Assembly (NCBI RefSeq): GCF_900182935.1
Contig: NZ_FXUE01000005.1
Span: 62,001 to 126,000 of the forward strand
Source: Fibrobacter sp. UWB10
GTDB taxonomy: Bacteria > Fibrobacterota > Fibrobacteria > Fibrobacterales > Fibrobacteraceae
Reading direction: 5' to 3'
DNA length: 64,000 bases
The translations under genes were made by a program, and so were the position numbers. The notes under the pieces are model-generated. The model was given only the letters and a program-made list of their open reading frames with translations, ran no database searches and was not told the origin of the DNA. Of this stretch, positions 1,808 through 7,441 are shown piece by piece. Numbering within the stretch: the first letter of the stretch is position 1; every line of letters starts with the position of its first letter.

Positions 1808-2959
1808 TTAACCTCTTTTGGATTTACCTTCTTCGACAGCACCCTTGATTAGGATGGGACAGATGTTCTTGATTTGCTGTTTGAGTTTTTCGTTTAAATC
1901 TTTTCGAATATTAAATGCTTTGTAAATTTCGGCAATATTCTTTTGAGTTGTTATATCAGGTATCGGAATTTTGTAATCACAGAGTGCATTCCAATCAAAA
2001 GTCTCGCGAGCAGACCCCCAAGAGTTAAAACGAGCGTAACGGTCAAACTCGGATCTAACAAAGAAAAGCATCAAATATTCAGAAAGCAATGATTTCTTTT
2101 CTGTTTCAAACACAATAGATATGGAAGAAACCAATATCGGTTTGTCTGATTTGTTAATTCCAAGAGAGATTTTATCACCACGTCTTGAAGTATCTGGAAC
2201 ATATGTAATTTGTAAAGGCGCTACTACTTTATAATTTTCAAGACTAACACCATCCATATTTGCTTTTGTTGGTATTAATTCCTTACTTGTGGCGATGCCT
2301 CTTACAGAATCAATGGTCAGGCCTATTGAATTTTTACTATCACATTCTTGTATATACGGACCTATTTTTTCGCAGGGCATTTTGCGGCGGAGTTCTTCAA
2401 TGTAGGCGTCGCAGGTGAGTTTCAGGTCATCAAGGCCTTTTTCATAGGCCTTTTGGTTTGCACACATTGCATCATAGATATCAACATACTTCTGCTGTGT
2501 CTGAAAATCAGGAAGCGTGATTGTGATATCGCATAAATCATCCCAATTAAAAAATTCAGTTGAACTACCCCAAGAATTAGTAATCACATATCTATCAAAT
2601 TCTGCTCTACAAAAATAGATGTACAGCCATTTAGGAGATAAAGTAGTAAGACATTTTTCTTTTACTCGAAAAACAACATAGTCCTCGGTAAAGATATGAT
2701 TTTCCGAATCGTAATTGTATGTGACACTAAATTTGCTTCCATTACGCGATGTACGATGATTAAAAACAAAATATCCAGGTTTTACAATTTGAAATTTTCT
2801 TAAATCTCGACCGAATAAATCCGCCTTTGTACGCATCATCTGTTTTAGATTGCTAACACCACGAACATCATTGGCTCCATATCTCCCATCAGAATTCCGT
2901 TCATCCAATGGTTCAATCAAGTCTCCCAATTTATACGTAGTCAAATTACTTAATCCCAT
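1808..2959 (-). CDS. hsdS: Type I restriction-modification specificity subunit HsdS
   Basis: DNA-recognition subunit, 383 residues, pairing with HsdM for methylation and with HsdR for cleavage. It has the usual two-fold internal repeat. Each half ends with a related segment (EFDRY..NSWGS..F.WDDLCD.TITLPDFQTQQK near residue 170; EFDRYARFNSWGSARETF.WNALCDYKIPIPD near 345), marking two target recognition domains separated by conserved helices. I chose the ATG at 2959 because AAAGGG lies at suitable spacing; a TTG two codons upstream would abut that site. It overlaps the end of hsdM by 14 bp. The sequence is visibly more AT-rich than hsdM and hsdR, which fits frequent exchange of recognition domains. 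The DNA target cannot be read from the sequence. Confidence 0.93.
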   Translation of the reverse strand: MGLSNLTTYKLGDLIEPLDERNSDGRYGANDVRGVSNLKQMMRTKADLFGRDLRKFQIVKPGYFVFNHRTSRNGSKFSVTYNYDSENHIFTEDYVVFRVKEKCLTTLSPKWLYIYFCRAEFDRYVITNSWGSSTEFFNWDDLCDITITLPDFQTQQKYVDIYDAMCANQKAYEKGLDDLKLTCDAYIEELRRKMPCEKIGPYIQECDSKNSIGLTIDSVRGIATSKELIPTKANMDGVSLENYKVVAPLQITYVPDTSRRGDKISLGINKSDKPILVSSISIVFETEKKSLLSEYLMLFFVRSEFDRYARFNSWGSARETFDWNALCDYKIPIPDITTQKNIAEIYKAFNIRKDLNEKLKQQIKNICPILIKGAVEEGKSKRG

Positions 2960-4517
2960 ACCCAATCCCTTTAAATGCGTTCACAAGCATTTCTTGAGAC
3001 TTGACTTCTTCGGCAATGACTTCTTGCATTTCCTTTTGGATTCGTTTCATCTCTTTCTTGTAATCGATATCCAGGTCGTGGTCAATGAACTCGATATACT
3101 TACTCGGAACAAGCGAATAATCCTTTTCAATGATTTCACTCATTGGGGCAGAGTAGCAATATTCCGCTTCGTCCTTATACAAATTTTTCCAATCAGGGGA
3201 TTGCCAGTTGAAAAGCGTTTGCGCAATGCGTTGCTTGCTTTCTTCCGTCAAAAGGGTAAAGCCGTCTTCGTTTGCGCCGCCATCACCAAGCTGGCGAGCG
3301 TCAATGAACAAAATCTCGTTTTCGCGATTGCGGAGCTTGACATTCTTGCCGTCGCGTTTTACGGTCTTTTCTTTCTTGTGATTACCCACAATCCAAAGCG
3401 TCACCGAAATATCCGTCGCATAGAACATATCTCTCGGCAACACGATAATTGCCTCTACCTTGTGTTCTTCAATCAATTTCTTGCGAATCTTGTATTCATC
3501 GCCATCAGCATTCAACGCCCCATTTGCCAAAAGGAACGCCGCCGTCCCGTTATAGCTCAAGTGCGAAATCATGTGCAAAATCCACGCGTAGTTCGCGTTG
3601 CTTACGGGAGGAACTTCGTAGCCTTTCCAACGCGCATCATTTTTCAGTTCTTCTTCCGTTCGCCAGTTCTTCAGGTTGAACGGCGGATTAGCCAGGATGA
3701 AGTCTGCCTTCAAGTCCTTGTGTTTGTCGTTCGTAAAACTCGAAGCATCGGTATCGCCCAAGTTGCAATTCAAGCCGCGAATGGCCAGGTTCATTCGAGC
3801 CAGTTTATAAGTTTTGTCGTTTGATTCTTGACCGTAAATGGTAATGTTCTTCTTGTTGCCTTTGTGGCGCTTGATAAATTCAGCCGACTGCACGAACATT
3901 CCACCCGAACCGCAGGCCGGGTCAAAAACGGAACCCGTATAGGGCTGCACGATTTCGGTCATCAGTTCGACAATATTCCCCGGCGTGTAGAACTCACCTT
4001 TTTCGGACTTTGCTGCAATGCAGAACTTACGCAAAAAATATTCGTAAACGCGACCGATCACATCGTCCGTTTCATCGGTACTGTATTTCATCTTGTTGAT
4101 TTCGTCCATCAGCGAAGAGAACTTGTTCGCCTCGATATGCAGGTCGCGGTAAAAGCCAATCGGAAGCGCACCCTTGAGCGACGGATTGTTCTTTTCCATA
4201 TTGTTGAACGCATCGTCAATCTGCTTGTAGATTTCGTTCTTCTTGGAATTCTTGAGCAAGTAGTTCCAGCAGTCCGTCTCTTCAAGATAGAACACGTTTT
4301 CCTTGGAGTAAAAACGCGGATTGTTGACGAAATCCTTCGTGTCTTCGTTTGCAAGGAGAGCCCGACGTTGCGCTTCGAACTTGTCATAGGCAAACCGCAG
4401 GAACAAAAGTCCCAACACGACGTTCACGTAATCCGTGGCGCTCACGCTTCCGCGCAACTTGTTACACGCAGCCCAAAGTCCCGCTTCGAGCGATACCTGC
4501 TTTTTTTCCTTCGCCAT
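2946..4517 (-). CDS. hsdM: Type I restriction-modification methyltransferase subunit HsdM
   Basis: N6-adenine DNA methyltransferase subunit, 523 residues. The N-terminal helical domain (SLEAGLWAACNKLRGSV...LGLLFLRFAYDKFE) is typical of HsdM. The SAM-binding motif I reads VFDPACGSGGMF and catalytic motif IV reads NPPF, as expected for a gamma-class N6-adenine enzyme. The start is the ATG at 4517 with GGAG five bases upstream; the frame could extend five codons to a TTG at 4532 but that has no ribosome site. It is the first gene of the operon. The leader contains two large hairpins, annotated separately, that may control its transcription. Confidence 0.95.
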   Translation of the reverse strand: MAKEKKQVSLEAGLWAACNKLRGSVSATDYVNVVLGLLFLRFAYDKFEAQRRALLANEDTKDFVNNPRFYSKENVFYLEETDCWNYLLKNSKKNEIYKQIDDAFNNMEKNNPSLKGALPIGFYRDLHIEANKFSSLMDEINKMKYSTDETDDVIGRVYEYFLRKFCIAAKSEKGEFYTPGNIVELMTEIVQPYTGSVFDPACGSGGMFVQSAEFIKRHKGNKKNITIYGQESNDKTYKLARMNLAIRGLNCNLGDTDASSFTNDKHKDLKADFILANPPFNLKNWRTEEELKNDARWKGYEVPPVSNANYAWILHMISHLSYNGTAAFLLANGALNADGDEYKIRKKLIEEHKVEAIIVLPRDMFYATDISVTLWIVGNHKKEKTVKRDGKNVKLRNRENEILFIDARQLGDGGANEDGFTLLTEESKQRIAQTLFNWQSPDWKNLYKDEAEYCYSAPMSEIIEKDYSLVPSKYIEFIDHDLDIDYKKEMKRIQKEMQEVIAEEVKSQEMLVNAFKGIGYGIK

Positions 4518-4596
4518 AACATCTCCAAGCAAAAGTGGCGAAATCCATCTTCATTCGCACAAAGACCTTGGCCTAAGATGTCGGGAAAACAAAAAA

Positions 4597-4754
4597 GGCG
4601 TGGAGTCGCTTAGCGTGCCTATCATCGCTGCGGGCTACCACACCCTTTCGTACAATAAGCACAAACGACCCACGCCCCAGATGGGACGTGAGTGTTCGTC
4701 TTATTCTTGTACGAATTGAAAGTGGTAGTTTCAGCGATAAGAATAAGAGACGAA
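4597..4754 (-). promoter_or_regulatory. Twin-hairpin leader of the hsdMSR operon (candidate attenuator or palindromic element)
   Basis: Read on the minus strand, two stem-loops precede hsdM. The distal one (4754-4695) has 14 paired bases, TTCGTC plus TTATTCTT against AAGAATAA plus GACGAA. The proximal one (4676-4597) pairs GGCGTGG-GTCG with CGAC-T-CCACGCC, then GTGCTTAT with ATAGGCAC, and is followed immediately by TTTTTT. The two loops are complementary in three blocks (ATCGCTG/CAGCGAT, CTACCAC/GTGGTAG, TTCGTACAA/TTGTACGAA). The elements are therefore inverted copies with conserved loops and different but still paired stems. Hairpin plus U tract in the leader suggests transcription attenuation; a mobile palindromic element is the main alternative. 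Confidence 0.55.
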
Positions 4755-4771
4755 TCTCAAAAACCAGTTTG

Positions 4772-4801
4772 CCTATGGTTCTACGCCACAGGCTATGTCA
4801 A
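4772..4801 (-). promoter_or_regulatory. Possible promoter of the hsdMSR operon
   Basis: On the minus strand a perfect TTGACA -35 box lies at 4801-4796. About 18 bp downstream is a weak -10 candidate (CATAGG). Transcription would start about 250 nt before hsdM, so the twin hairpins would be in the leader RNA. The weak -10 keeps confidence low. Confidence 0.35.
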
Positions 4802-4834
4802 CTGCAATATAGATTTTTCAAAGAGAAAAGGAGA

Positions 4835-4909
4835 TGCCGCATCGAGTGCGGCAAGACAATTTGGGGTCTTAGGGGCGAAGCCCCTAGGCGAGGGGGTAGC
4901 GTAAGACCC
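4835..4909 (+). repeat. Structured palindromic repeat, copy 1 (REP-like)
   Basis: A hairpin TGCCGCA-N5-TGCGGCA (4835-4853) is followed by a two-stem element. The outer stem is GGGTCTTA (4864-4871) with TAAGACCC (4902-4909). The inner stem is GGGGC-GAA-GCCCC (4872-4884), followed by the unpaired block TAGGCGAGGGGGTAG. A second copy on the minus strand at 32457-32500 keeps the block and the pairing with compensatory changes. The rest of the gap 4518-5043 shows no other convincing gene. Confidence 0.6.
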
Positions 4910-5043
4910 GGCGTGCAGGGGCTGCAGCGAGGGGGAATCTTCCCCCATCAAACAAAGGCTTTTCTCTGTACAGTTCATAGGCTTGCGTATTAACATGCCG
5001 CGAATGTATATTCCATGCAGAATCTTTATTTATTGGAGACAGC

Positions 5044-5214
5044 ATGAGCAAAGTCATTAAAAATTTGCTGATAGACCCAGAATTATTAGCCCAGGCAACA
5101 CCGATACTCGAAGGGCTAGGGCTTACAGTGCCGCAGGCGCTTACCATATTTCTGCGGCAAATTGTATTGCGACGCGGGTTACCTTTCGAAGTAAAAGTTC
5201 CGAAAGTCCCCTAA
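5044..5214 (+). CDS. Small RelB/DinJ-like antitoxin, apparently orphan
   Basis: A 56-residue protein starting at an ATG with GGAG seven bases upstream. The core LTVPQALTIFLRQIVLRRGLPFEV matches the ribbon-helix-helix pattern of RelB/DinJ antitoxins (a strand, then S/T..A...FLRQ.., ending in G.PFE). Such proteins bind DNA as dimers and neutralise a RelE/YafQ-type ribonuclease, usually encoded immediately downstream. Here the next 100 bases hold no toxin-sized frame and the GH9 gene follows. The gene is complete, so this may be the surviving half of a toxin-antitoxin pair or a solitary regulator. Family assignment is from motif only. Confidence 0.7.
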   Translation: MSKVIKNLLIDPELLAQATPILEGLGLTVPQALTIFLRQIVLRRGLPFEVKVPKVP

Positions 5215-5314: not shown

Positions 5315-7441
5315 ATGAATACAGTTTGCAGACTCCTCCCCTTTGCGATTGCGGCTTCCGCATTCGCGGATAACACGTTTTTCCTTAACGAGGCGGGCTA
5401 CGACCTAGGCAAGCCCTTTTCGGCCGTAGTACAAAGCACCGAAGAACTCGAAGGAACCAAGTGGAGCATTTACTATTTGCGCGATAACATGCCCCAAACT
5501 CAAGGTTTACCCCCGCAAGTTTTAGCGGAGGGTGTATTTGGTAAAGGCGAAAATCCCGACAATTGGTCTAAAAGCGGAAAATACTATCGCATCGAAATTC
5601 CCTACGGTTTTTTATATGAGGGAACGTACTACATTGACGATGTTACGGGCAGCCCCTCTAAATCGCAAGAATTTACCGTAGGTGGAAACCAGCTTGCCAA
5701 GAGCACACTCGGCATGGTGCTGGACTACTTCTACGATGACCGCGCCGACAAGGCTCCCATTATCGAATGGGACCAAAAGGTTCCCGTTTACGGCAGTTCT
5801 GGAGTCACGCGCGATGTTCGCGGCGGTTGGTATGATGCAAGCGGTGACGTGAGCAAGTATCTTAGCCATCTTTCTTATGCAAACTACTTGAACCCGCAAC
5901 AGATACCCTTAACGGTATGGTCGCTCGCCTATGCAGCAGAACGCATTCCGACGTTGCTCGCATCGACAAGTTCCAAAGCCAAGACCGTCAACGAAGCCGC
6001 CTACGGTGCAGACTTCTTAGTACGCATGCTCGACGAACAGGGGTTCTTCTACATGACGGTGTTCGACAATTGGGGCATGGGAGACCGAACCCTTTGTGCC
6101 TTTAGCGGCGAAGACGGCAAAAAGAGCAATAATTACCAGACGGCTTTCCGCGAAGGCGGTGGCATGGCAATCGCAGGCCTTGCCCGCGTGGCAAAACTTG
6201 GAGTCAAAGGCGATTACACCAGCGAACAGTACCTCGCTGCAGCCGAAAAAGCTTATGCACACCTCTCTGAAAAACAGAGCATTGGTGGTAATTGCGCCTA
6301 CTGCGACGACGGCAAGGAAAACATCATCGATGACTACACCGCACTCCTTGCGGCAACAGAATTGTTCCTCGCTACGGGAAAAGGTGTCTACATGAACGAT
6401 ATGGAAAGCCGCGCTGGACACCTGGCCGACCGTATTAGCAATGACGGTTATTTCTGGAGCGACGACGCGAAGACCCGTCCGTTCTGGCATGCAAGCGACG
6501 CAGGACTTCCGCTGATTGCATTGGTACGATTCCTCGAAGCAGAAATGCAGATTGAACGCGAACCTTGCCCCCCTGAATTCGACTGTTCAGTCTCCAATGG
6601 TGAAATTGTCTACAAGACAGCACTCGCGGCCGTCCGCAAGCACTTGAGCTGGCTCACCACCATCACAAACAAAGTTGCAAACCCCTTCGGTTACGCCCGC
6701 CAGACCTACAAGACCGGCGGAAACATCAAGGACGGATTCTTTATTCCGCACGACAACGAAAGCAAGTATTGGTGGCAGGGCGAAGACGCTCGTCTCGCAA
6801 GCCTTTCTGCCGCAGCTACTTATACACAGACCGCATTGAGCATCGTTGATTCCGGAGCTATATCCAAGTATGCAACCGACCAGCTCGACTGGATTTTGGG
6901 CAAGAACCCTTACGGCACTTGCATGATGTACGGCATCGGTAAGAAGAATCCTGCCAAGTACGACGGCACCTCTGATTACGACGCAACCCTCAAGGGCGGC
7001 ATTGCAAACGGCATTACTGGCAAGAGCACGGACGGCTCGGGAATCGCTTGGGATGACGACGGAGTTGCCTACGTAGGCTTTAACCCCGAAGAACCTTGGA
7101 ACAACTGGCGTTGGGTTGAACAGTGGTTACCGCATACCACTTGGTACCTGAACGCACTAGTCGCCCGCTACGATGAAAATCCGATTAAGGTTTACAACCC
7201 CGATGCAATCAAGCCTAAGGCTATCGCGAGCGCCAAATTCTCGGTGCAGACTCAGGGCCGCATGCTTACGGTGAACGCCCGCGGAACCGCAAAAGTGCAG
7301 GTATTGAGCCTCAATGGCGCAGAAATTGCAACCGCAAAGCTTACCGCCGGACACGCAACGCTGAACCTCGACAACGCGCAGAGCGGTATCTACATGGTCA
7401 AGGTTGACGGCTTTGGAGCAAAGAAGATTGCAATAAAGTAA
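5315..7441 (+). CDS. Secreted GH9 endoglucanase-like enzyme with C-terminal sorting tail
   Basis: A 708-residue exported glycoside hydrolase, probably a beta-1,4-glucanase. A signal peptide (about 1-18, ending AFA) precedes an Ig-like domain typical of one GH9 subgroup (FFLNEAGYDLGKPFSAVV, 22-120). The GH9 catalytic domain follows, about 130-620. The aspartate motif reads GGWYDASGD (D174, D178), one residue longer than the common DAGD. A LGKNPYG segment and WRWVEQWLPHTTWYLNA near the end follow, with E602 the likely proton donor. Residues about 640-708 form a beta-rich tail ending GIYMVKVDGFGAKKIAIK, resembling T9SS-type C-terminal sorting domains. ATG at 5315; no clear ribosome site. Substrate is inferred from the family. 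Confidence 0.88.
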   Translation: MNTVCRLLPFAIAASAFADNTFFLNEAGYDLGKPFSAVVQSTEELEGTKWSIYYLRDNMPQTQGLPPQVLAEGVFGKGENPDNWSKSGKYYRIEIPYGFLYEGTYYIDDVTGSPSKSQEFTVGGNQLAKSTLGMVLDYFYDDRADKAPIIEWDQKVPVYGSSGVTRDVRGGWYDASGDVSKYLSHLSYANYLNPQQIPLTVWSLAYAAERIPTLLASTSSKAKTVNEAAYGADFLVRMLDEQGFFYMTVFDNWGMGDRTLCAFSGEDGKKSNNYQTAFREGGGMAIAGLARVAKLGVKGDYTSEQYLAAAEKAYAHLSEKQSIGGNCAYCDDGKENIIDDYTALLAATELFLATGKGVYMNDMESRAGHLADRISNDGYFWSDDAKTRPFWHASDAGLPLIALVRFLEAEMQIEREPCPPEFDCSVSNGEIVYKTALAAVRKHLSWLTTITNKVANPFGYARQTYKTGGNIKDGFFIPHDNESKYWWQGEDARLASLSAAATYTQTALSIVDSGAISKYATDQLDWILGKNPYGTCMMYGIGKKNPAKYDGTSDYDATLKGGIANGITGKSTDGSGIAWDDDGVAYVGFNPEEPWNNWRWVEQWLPHTTWYLNALVARYDENPIKVYNPDAIKPKAIASAKFSVQTQGRMLTVNARGTAKVQVLSLNGAEIATAKLTAGHATLNLDNAQSGIYMVKVDGFGAKKIAIK

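Follow-up and report, generated by a model that had tools for sequence, protein, structure and literature searches.

Directly upstream of hsdM, Fibrobacter sp. UWB10 encodes an RNA that is probably the leader of the hsdM-hsdS-(hsdR) operon and would act in cis as a transcription attenuator/antiterminator, of a kind used mainly by restriction-modification (R-M) operons. The window analyzed is a stretch of 64,000 nt (GCF_900182935.1, contig NZ_FXUE01000005.1, positions 62,001–126,000), and all coordinates of the home locus refer to it. The predicted leader RNA is ~209 nt long and runs on the minus strand from GACATAG to a U tract (4591–4799), as judged from covariance model matches and an alignment of 130 copies, with the 5' end placed from a -10 box. 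The locus showed the features of an attenuator: a 5' leader on the gene strand, an intrinsic terminator with a GC stem between promoter and gene, and an alternative fold that excludes the terminator. The first gene behind the leader is hsdM (2946–4517, minus strand; ATG at 4517 with an SD-like GGAG just upstream; PF02384 5.5e-94, PF12161 2.9e-21), followed on the same strand by hsdS (1808–2965; PF01420 1.4e-13) and a probable hsdR (1–1802), which runs past the window edge as an open ORF of 600 aa with DEAD-like motifs seen by eye. HsdM and HsdS of this type I operon are thus assigned by Pfam and HsdR by sequence only. Divergent from the R-M operon lies a gene of glycoside hydrolase family 9 (5315–7441, plus strand), which also encodes a secretion-tail domain.

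The sequence-only reading had described two hairpins on the minus strand, a distal one of 14 pairs and a proximal one of about 19 pairs followed by TTTTTT, with three matched loop blocks through which the loops could pair with each other, and had noted that the proximal stem with its U tract looks like a terminator. All of these points held. The distal hairpin is formed by TTCGTC-TC-TTATTCTT and AAGAATAAGACGAA (14 pairs), and the proximal hairpin by GGCGTGGGTCG..GTGCTTAT and ATAGGCAC..CGACTCCACGCC (11 + 8 = 19 pairs), after which TTTTTT follows at 4591–4596. The three blocks that are complementary between the two hairpins are ATCGCTG/CAGCGAT, CTACCAC/GTGGTAG, and TTCGTACA/TGTACGAA. Folding of the leader, which had been suggested as a check, gave −85.1 kcal/mol for 4585–4800 (minus strand) as against −56.3 ± 4.3 kcal/mol for shuffled sequences (z = −6.7), and none of 200 shuffles was as low. 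In the most stable global fold both hairpins are merged in one long nested structure, and the separate hairpins represent an alternative state.

A covariance model was built from 28 copies and used on 61 Fibrobacter genomes and on other Fibrobacterota. A search of Fibrobacter genomes, for the loop blocks, had also been proposed beforehand. The results revealed a structured RNA family with copies in 60 of the 61 Fibrobacter genomes, at 1–18 copies per genome. Other genera of the Fibrobacteraceae also had copies, and three further families of the phylum had diverged members. The 130 aligned copies, of which 110 distinct sequences were used for covariation, were sampled by model score and are not a complete set. 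The home genome has two further copies: one, 88% identical, immediately precedes an hsdR-hsdM-hsdS operon, and the other, which is diverged, precedes the gene of a small membrane protein (8xMP), so that type I operons stand behind two of the three copies. An exact core pattern run over GTDB genomes returned 52 stretches, of which all but two carried the label Fibrobacter, Fibrobacteraceae or Fibrobacterales. The two exceptions, MAG contigs labelled Bacteroidales and archaeon, carry good, true copies and are probably mis-binned Fibrobacter DNA. In Rfam there was no match at the gathering score and there were only chance-level matches at E up to 10; the leader was therefore rejected as a member of a known RNA family, and the family is apparently undescribed and seen in Fibrobacterota only.

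The -10-like box of the leader promoter, TATATT, lies at 4806–4811 (minus strand). Of 105 distinct copies, 104 have a TA..T box at the equivalent place, 8–14 nt upstream of ACATAG, as compared with 32% in shuffles, and no conserved -35 was seen among these 105 copies. TTGACA had been taken for the -35 element of the promoter; this assignment was rejected, as TATATT lies upstream of TTGACA and no -10-like box is found downstream of it. Given this arrangement, GACATAG is likely to be the RNA 5' end, and the RNA most plausibly begins with TTGACATAG. In many copies, palindromic intergenic repeats (for example GTCATCCCCGCG-AGGCGGGGATCTCC) occur just before the leader promoter.

Two folds can be drawn for the RNA (all positions on the minus strand). 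The antiterminator (AT) fold consists of the nested elements P2, P3, P4, P5, and P6/P7, and the T fold combines hairpin 1 with the terminator helices, whose loop contains the small hairpin H2. AT and T cannot coexist because they have strands in common: P6/P7 competes for the terminator 5' arm, and P6 competes with hairpin 1. Upstream of the shared region, the 5' hairpin P1 (GCCTGTGG..CCATAGGC, 4771–4793) is variable in sequence and paired in the copies inspected, and the P2 hairpin GAGA-UUCG-UCUC (4747–4758) is 96% paired with double changes in 4/4 pairs. In the AT state, P3 (4624–4738) joins 4732–4738 to 4624–4630 and P5 (4647–4715) joins 4708–4715 to 4647–4654. Both helices are hypervariable but complementary, being 98.7% paired with 7/7 pairs doubly changed and 93.7% paired with 8/8 doubly changed, respectively. 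The long P6/P7 hairpin (4655–4704), which sequesters the terminator 5' arm, is ~98% paired. Three copies (L163, at 4863–5114, L223 and L224) have an extra hairpin of ~60 nt at the tip of P7, and two of the three precede 8xMP-like membrane-protein genes. In the T state, hairpin 1 (4701–4746), which is the distal hairpin, pairs its core UUAUUCUU (4739–4746) with AAGAAUAA (4701–4708), and the terminator hairpin (4597–4676), which is the proximal one, pairs 4666–4676 with 4597–4608 and 4655–4662 with 4615–4622. The terminator U tract (4591–4596) is represented by a run of 4–8 U in 130/130 copies.

The first covariation test was performed on a MAFFT alignment of 28 sequences fitted to neither fold. 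In this alignment, 94.4% of AT and 96.6% of T positions were paired, 23 of 48 AT pairs and 11 of 34 T pairs had changed on both sides, and the covariation score of AT or T was reached by none of 500 shuffles. With 110 sequences, AT was 97.5% paired, with 31/48 pairs and 1108 cells doubly changed (311 in shuffles), and T was 96.1% paired, with 19/34 pairs and 151 cells doubly changed (56 in shuffles). Since this larger alignment was fitted to AT and not to T, the T counts are not flattered by it. Within T, hairpin 1 was 96.2% paired in the 110 sequences with 6/8 pairs doubly changed, though in few cells (15 vs. 3.6 in shuffles), and the terminator helices were 96.6% paired with 8/19 pairs doubly changed and 32 cells vs. 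5.5. The T-specific covariation is thus real and above all shuffles, but modest, because the T strands hardly vary. These results bear out the earlier proposal that the stems vary yet stay paired and that structure is selected, and they do so for both folds across the family.

Strands with two partners are conserved, and strands with one (P3, P5, and the loops) are hypervariable but compensated. We also considered whether P3 and P5 have diversified against cross-pairing of copies in the same genome. A permutation test gave no support for such orthogonality, as P3 was shared within a genome in 1/136 pairs and P5 in 3/136, compared with permutation means of 1.9 and 2.1; the hypervariability is explained more simply by the single pairing partner of these strands. 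In one copy (L090, 5001–5169; G030:C55), the arms of P3 and P5 are unpaired (GTTATCG/CTGCAAT and GCATCA/GTGTTG) and the rest of the copy is intact. It may have arisen as a natural mutant of the clamp, by recombination between two copies, or as a chimera during assembly.

The middle loop block is carried by two mini-hairpins with complementary loops, H0 (GAAA[CUACCAC]UUUC, 4718–4732, minus strand) and H2 (GGGU[GUGGUA]GCCC, 4632–4645, minus strand), whose loop pairing constitutes P4. At least seven contiguous Watson–Crick pairs were possible between H0 and H2 in 65 of 66 distinct segment pairs as against ~14% with swapped partners, and the pairing is kept though the loops differ (CUACCAC, UCUGGUAAA, UCGGCAAA, AACGACCAA, and others); in the AT fold the complementary loops are 7–9 nt long. 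Stems of at least 4 bp were present in 58/66 distinct H0 and 63/66 distinct H2 segments, compared with 26% and 43% in shuffled letters. The closing pair of H2 had changed on both sides in 44 sequences, and H2 alone accounted for 44 double-change cells vs. 21 in shuffles. Eight diverged members have kept the complementarity of P3, of the loop block (P4), and mostly of P5, with sequences that are largely different. H0/H2 together with P3 and P5 can be arranged in a four-way junction in which the loops kiss, a geometry that we infer; alternatively, the H0/H2 base pairs could form a plain internal helix.

The downstream gene was readable for 128 of the 130 copies. In 123/128 a gene starts on the same strand no more than 250 nt downstream, and in 114/128 the distance is at most 120 nt. 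The first gene encodes an R-M protein or DNA methyltransferase in 88/128, namely HsdM, HsdR, type III Mod, type ISP/IIG, MmeI, EcoRI-type or Dam-type methyltransferases; one R-M cluster was counted on weak database support and carries NPPY and a glycine-rich motif. In 15 further copies an R-M homologue lies within ~5 kb, giving a total of 103/128; these include all DUF4417-led loci, two DrmD-like (DISARM), and two UvrD-like loci. The R-M share was alike in the top half (36/53) and the bottom half (37/54) of copies by model score. The tie to R-M genes that had been supposed from the single locus is therefore seen across the family. In another family, a diverged member is followed by a type III Mod-Res pair, and a member in another genus precedes a C5 methyltransferase. 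Because members of family f7 precede secreted proteins and ~25 copies precede TPR, acyltransferase or secreted-protein genes, the R-M link is strong but not exclusive. In the home genome the leader is found at two of four N6_Mtase loci, and a type I hsdM of this genome (C7) has none; the leader is therefore not needed for R-M expression.

Several further observations were made on the loci. At eight of them, two tandem leaders lie ~1.4–2.1 kb apart, the first before a small gene (mostly DUF4417) and the second before an R-M gene. The same promoter block is found ahead of different R-M genes, an arrangement that hints at gene swapping behind a common leader. In six loci the divergent upstream genes appear to be KilA-N, RhuM/virulence-type or ORF6N-like. 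In other families of the phylum, the genes behind five diverged members encode, as judged by sequence, secreted or LamG-like proteins and an HNH-like protein, and the RNA may therefore predate its R-M role.

The position of the downstream genes also bears on the possibility that the element encodes an independent small RNA acting in trans, which has a promoter and a terminator of its own and whose gene travels with defence genes, the downstream gene being transcribed from another promoter. The -10 box and the conserved strong terminator would indeed release a discrete RNA of ~209 nt. We nevertheless consider this explanation unlikely, since the same-strand gene start lies so close in 114 of the 128 copies, no second conserved promoter between terminator and gene was seen by eye in the family alignment, and the terminator of a simple small RNA needs no conserved, exclusive alternative helix for its 5' arm.

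In the attenuator reading, RNA polymerase would start near 4799 and transcribe ~209 nt to the intrinsic terminator (4597–4676) and its U tract. In the AT state, H0, H2, P3, and P5 would clamp the P6/P7 hairpin, and since this hairpin holds the terminator 5' arm, transcription would read through into the R-M genes. In the T state, hairpin 1 would form, the terminator arm would be free and transcription would stop. A signal, which may be a ligand, a protein, an RNA or polymerase speed, would choose the fold. That the folds interconvert in the cell and set the level of read-through, and that some signal decides between them, we infer from this architecture. AT had a lower folding energy than T in 100 of 109 sequences (median difference 12 kcal/mol), and when prefixes of the window leader were folded, hairpin 1 appeared first (~nt 105–140) and AT from ~nt 155, once P5 and H2 had been made, so that AT was in place before the terminator 3' arm appeared. 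These models suggest that AT is the ON state and the default, and the signal may therefore act by breaking the P3/H0–H2/P5 clamp. The simplest reading would then be read-through by default and termination when the clamp breaks. If co-transcriptional kinetics favour T, the polarity could be the reverse, and the terminator might be of little importance if AT always wins.

The same stability would fit a constitutive element, such as an RNase III target, a stability or insulator element, or a fixed partial terminator that keeps R-M levels low, which does no switching; AT forms a long hairpin of very high stability, and most copies favour it thermodynamically. However, a second, exclusive set of pairs (hairpin 1, the terminator helices, and H2) has been kept with compensatory changes, for which a fixed hairpin has no need, and a purely constitutive role thus appears improbable.

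With regard to the signal of the proposed switch, the family copies contained no conserved aptamer-like pocket, protein site or uORF. The search of Rfam, which covers known classes, gave no riboswitch. No conserved leader peptide was found, and a peptide-dependent attenuator was rejected because an ATG uORF of at least 9 codons was present in only 16/112 copies. The sequence-only reading had further suggested that the switch might delay restriction after entry into a new cell. This idea found no support, as methylase and nuclease are encoded behind the same leader or in one polypeptide: the leader lies ahead of hsdM-hsdS-hsdR, hsdR-hsdM-hsdS or single-chain type IIG/ISP enzymes and thus cannot, alone, express modification before restriction. 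The copies ahead of non-R-M genes also count against it.

Attenuator leaders are well known as a class. Like riboswitches, T-boxes, and protein-controlled attenuators, the Fibrobacter RNA is a 5' leader of ~200 nt with an intrinsic terminator and an exclusive fold that hides a terminator arm, and it shares with terminator/antiterminator leaders a wide use ahead of functionally related genes. It differs from them in that it has no known aptamer or Rfam match and has been seen only in Fibrobacterota, in that its AT fold is closed by a pair of mini-hairpins that have complementary loops and lie between hypervariable helices, and in that its targets are mostly R-M and defence genes. The leaders of type III toxin–antitoxin systems (ToxIN) consist of an RNA element followed by a terminator and a defence gene. 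The order is the same here, but the Fibrobacter leader lacks tandem RNA repeats, and since the downstream genes belong to unrelated families, it is not an antitoxin for one toxin.

Processive antitermination elements (HK022 put, EAR, and LoaP) are cis RNA hairpins that raise the transcription of long operons. An element of this type, which loads polymerase for long, horizontally acquired operons, would suit the RNA hairpins near the 5' end and targets that are long accessory genes (R-M, DISARM-like, and large secreted proteins). The leader is set apart from these elements, as they are described, by its own switchable terminator and the fold that hides it, which indicate local attenuation, and we regard a processive mechanism as very unlikely.

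It is highly unlikely that the sequence acts as DNA in the form of a palindromic mobile or recombination element (REP/MITE or integron attC-like), the first of which was the alternative offered by the sequence-only reading: many copies per genome do occur in accessory loci, sometimes two of them ~1.4–2.1 kb apart, but the copies are not randomly scattered, orientation and distance to the downstream gene being fixed (same strand, within 250 nt, in 123/128 copies), the covariation is of RNA type with G–U pairs and is accompanied by a U tract, and conservation within the phylum is deep with no matches in phages, plasmids or IMG/VR. An integron attC site was rejected, since GTTRRRY/RYYYAAC is absent from the window copy and just 2/112 copies have both motifs. 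Transfer by phages or plasmids was likewise rejected as the means of spread, as no copies were found in phages, plasmids or, by pattern search, IMG/VR.

Most of what is known about the regulation of R-M genes concerns proteins specific to one system, with a few antisense RNAs in addition. The known cases are C proteins, autorepression by methyltransferases, and antisense RNA in EcoRI and Eco29kI. The present leader resembles these cases in that R-M expression would be controlled and, as in the antisense examples, RNA is involved (PMC3874152, PMC12707154); it differs in that a single leader family is shared by types I, II, and III, whereas the known repressors, activators or reverse promoters are system-specific. 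A 2025 R-M review mentions antisense RNA and does not contain 'attenuat', 'riboswitch' or 'leader', and among open-licence papers we found none that describes attenuation of R-M genes by a leader or the motif in Fibrobacter. Neither the leader family and its architecture nor its use by R-M systems of different types turned up in Rfam or the searched papers.

A wider reading, which we put forward tentatively and hold to be less probable than the attenuator itself, is that of a phylum-wide defence regulon, in which one switch RNA would serve unrelated R-M systems (types I, II, and III) as well as genes of the DISARM/UvrD type, a common signal (perhaps phage takeover or altered polymerase speed) would toggle restriction together, and the H0/H2 kissing clamp in a four-way junction would decide termination. 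The hypervariable but compensated helices show which pairings matter and make the leader a clean test case for a kissing-clamp antiterminator. If one structured leader RNA is indeed shared by many unrelated R-M types across the phylum, restriction would be under common control at transcription termination, in hosts that are rumen fibre degraders and in which restriction barriers matter for genetics.
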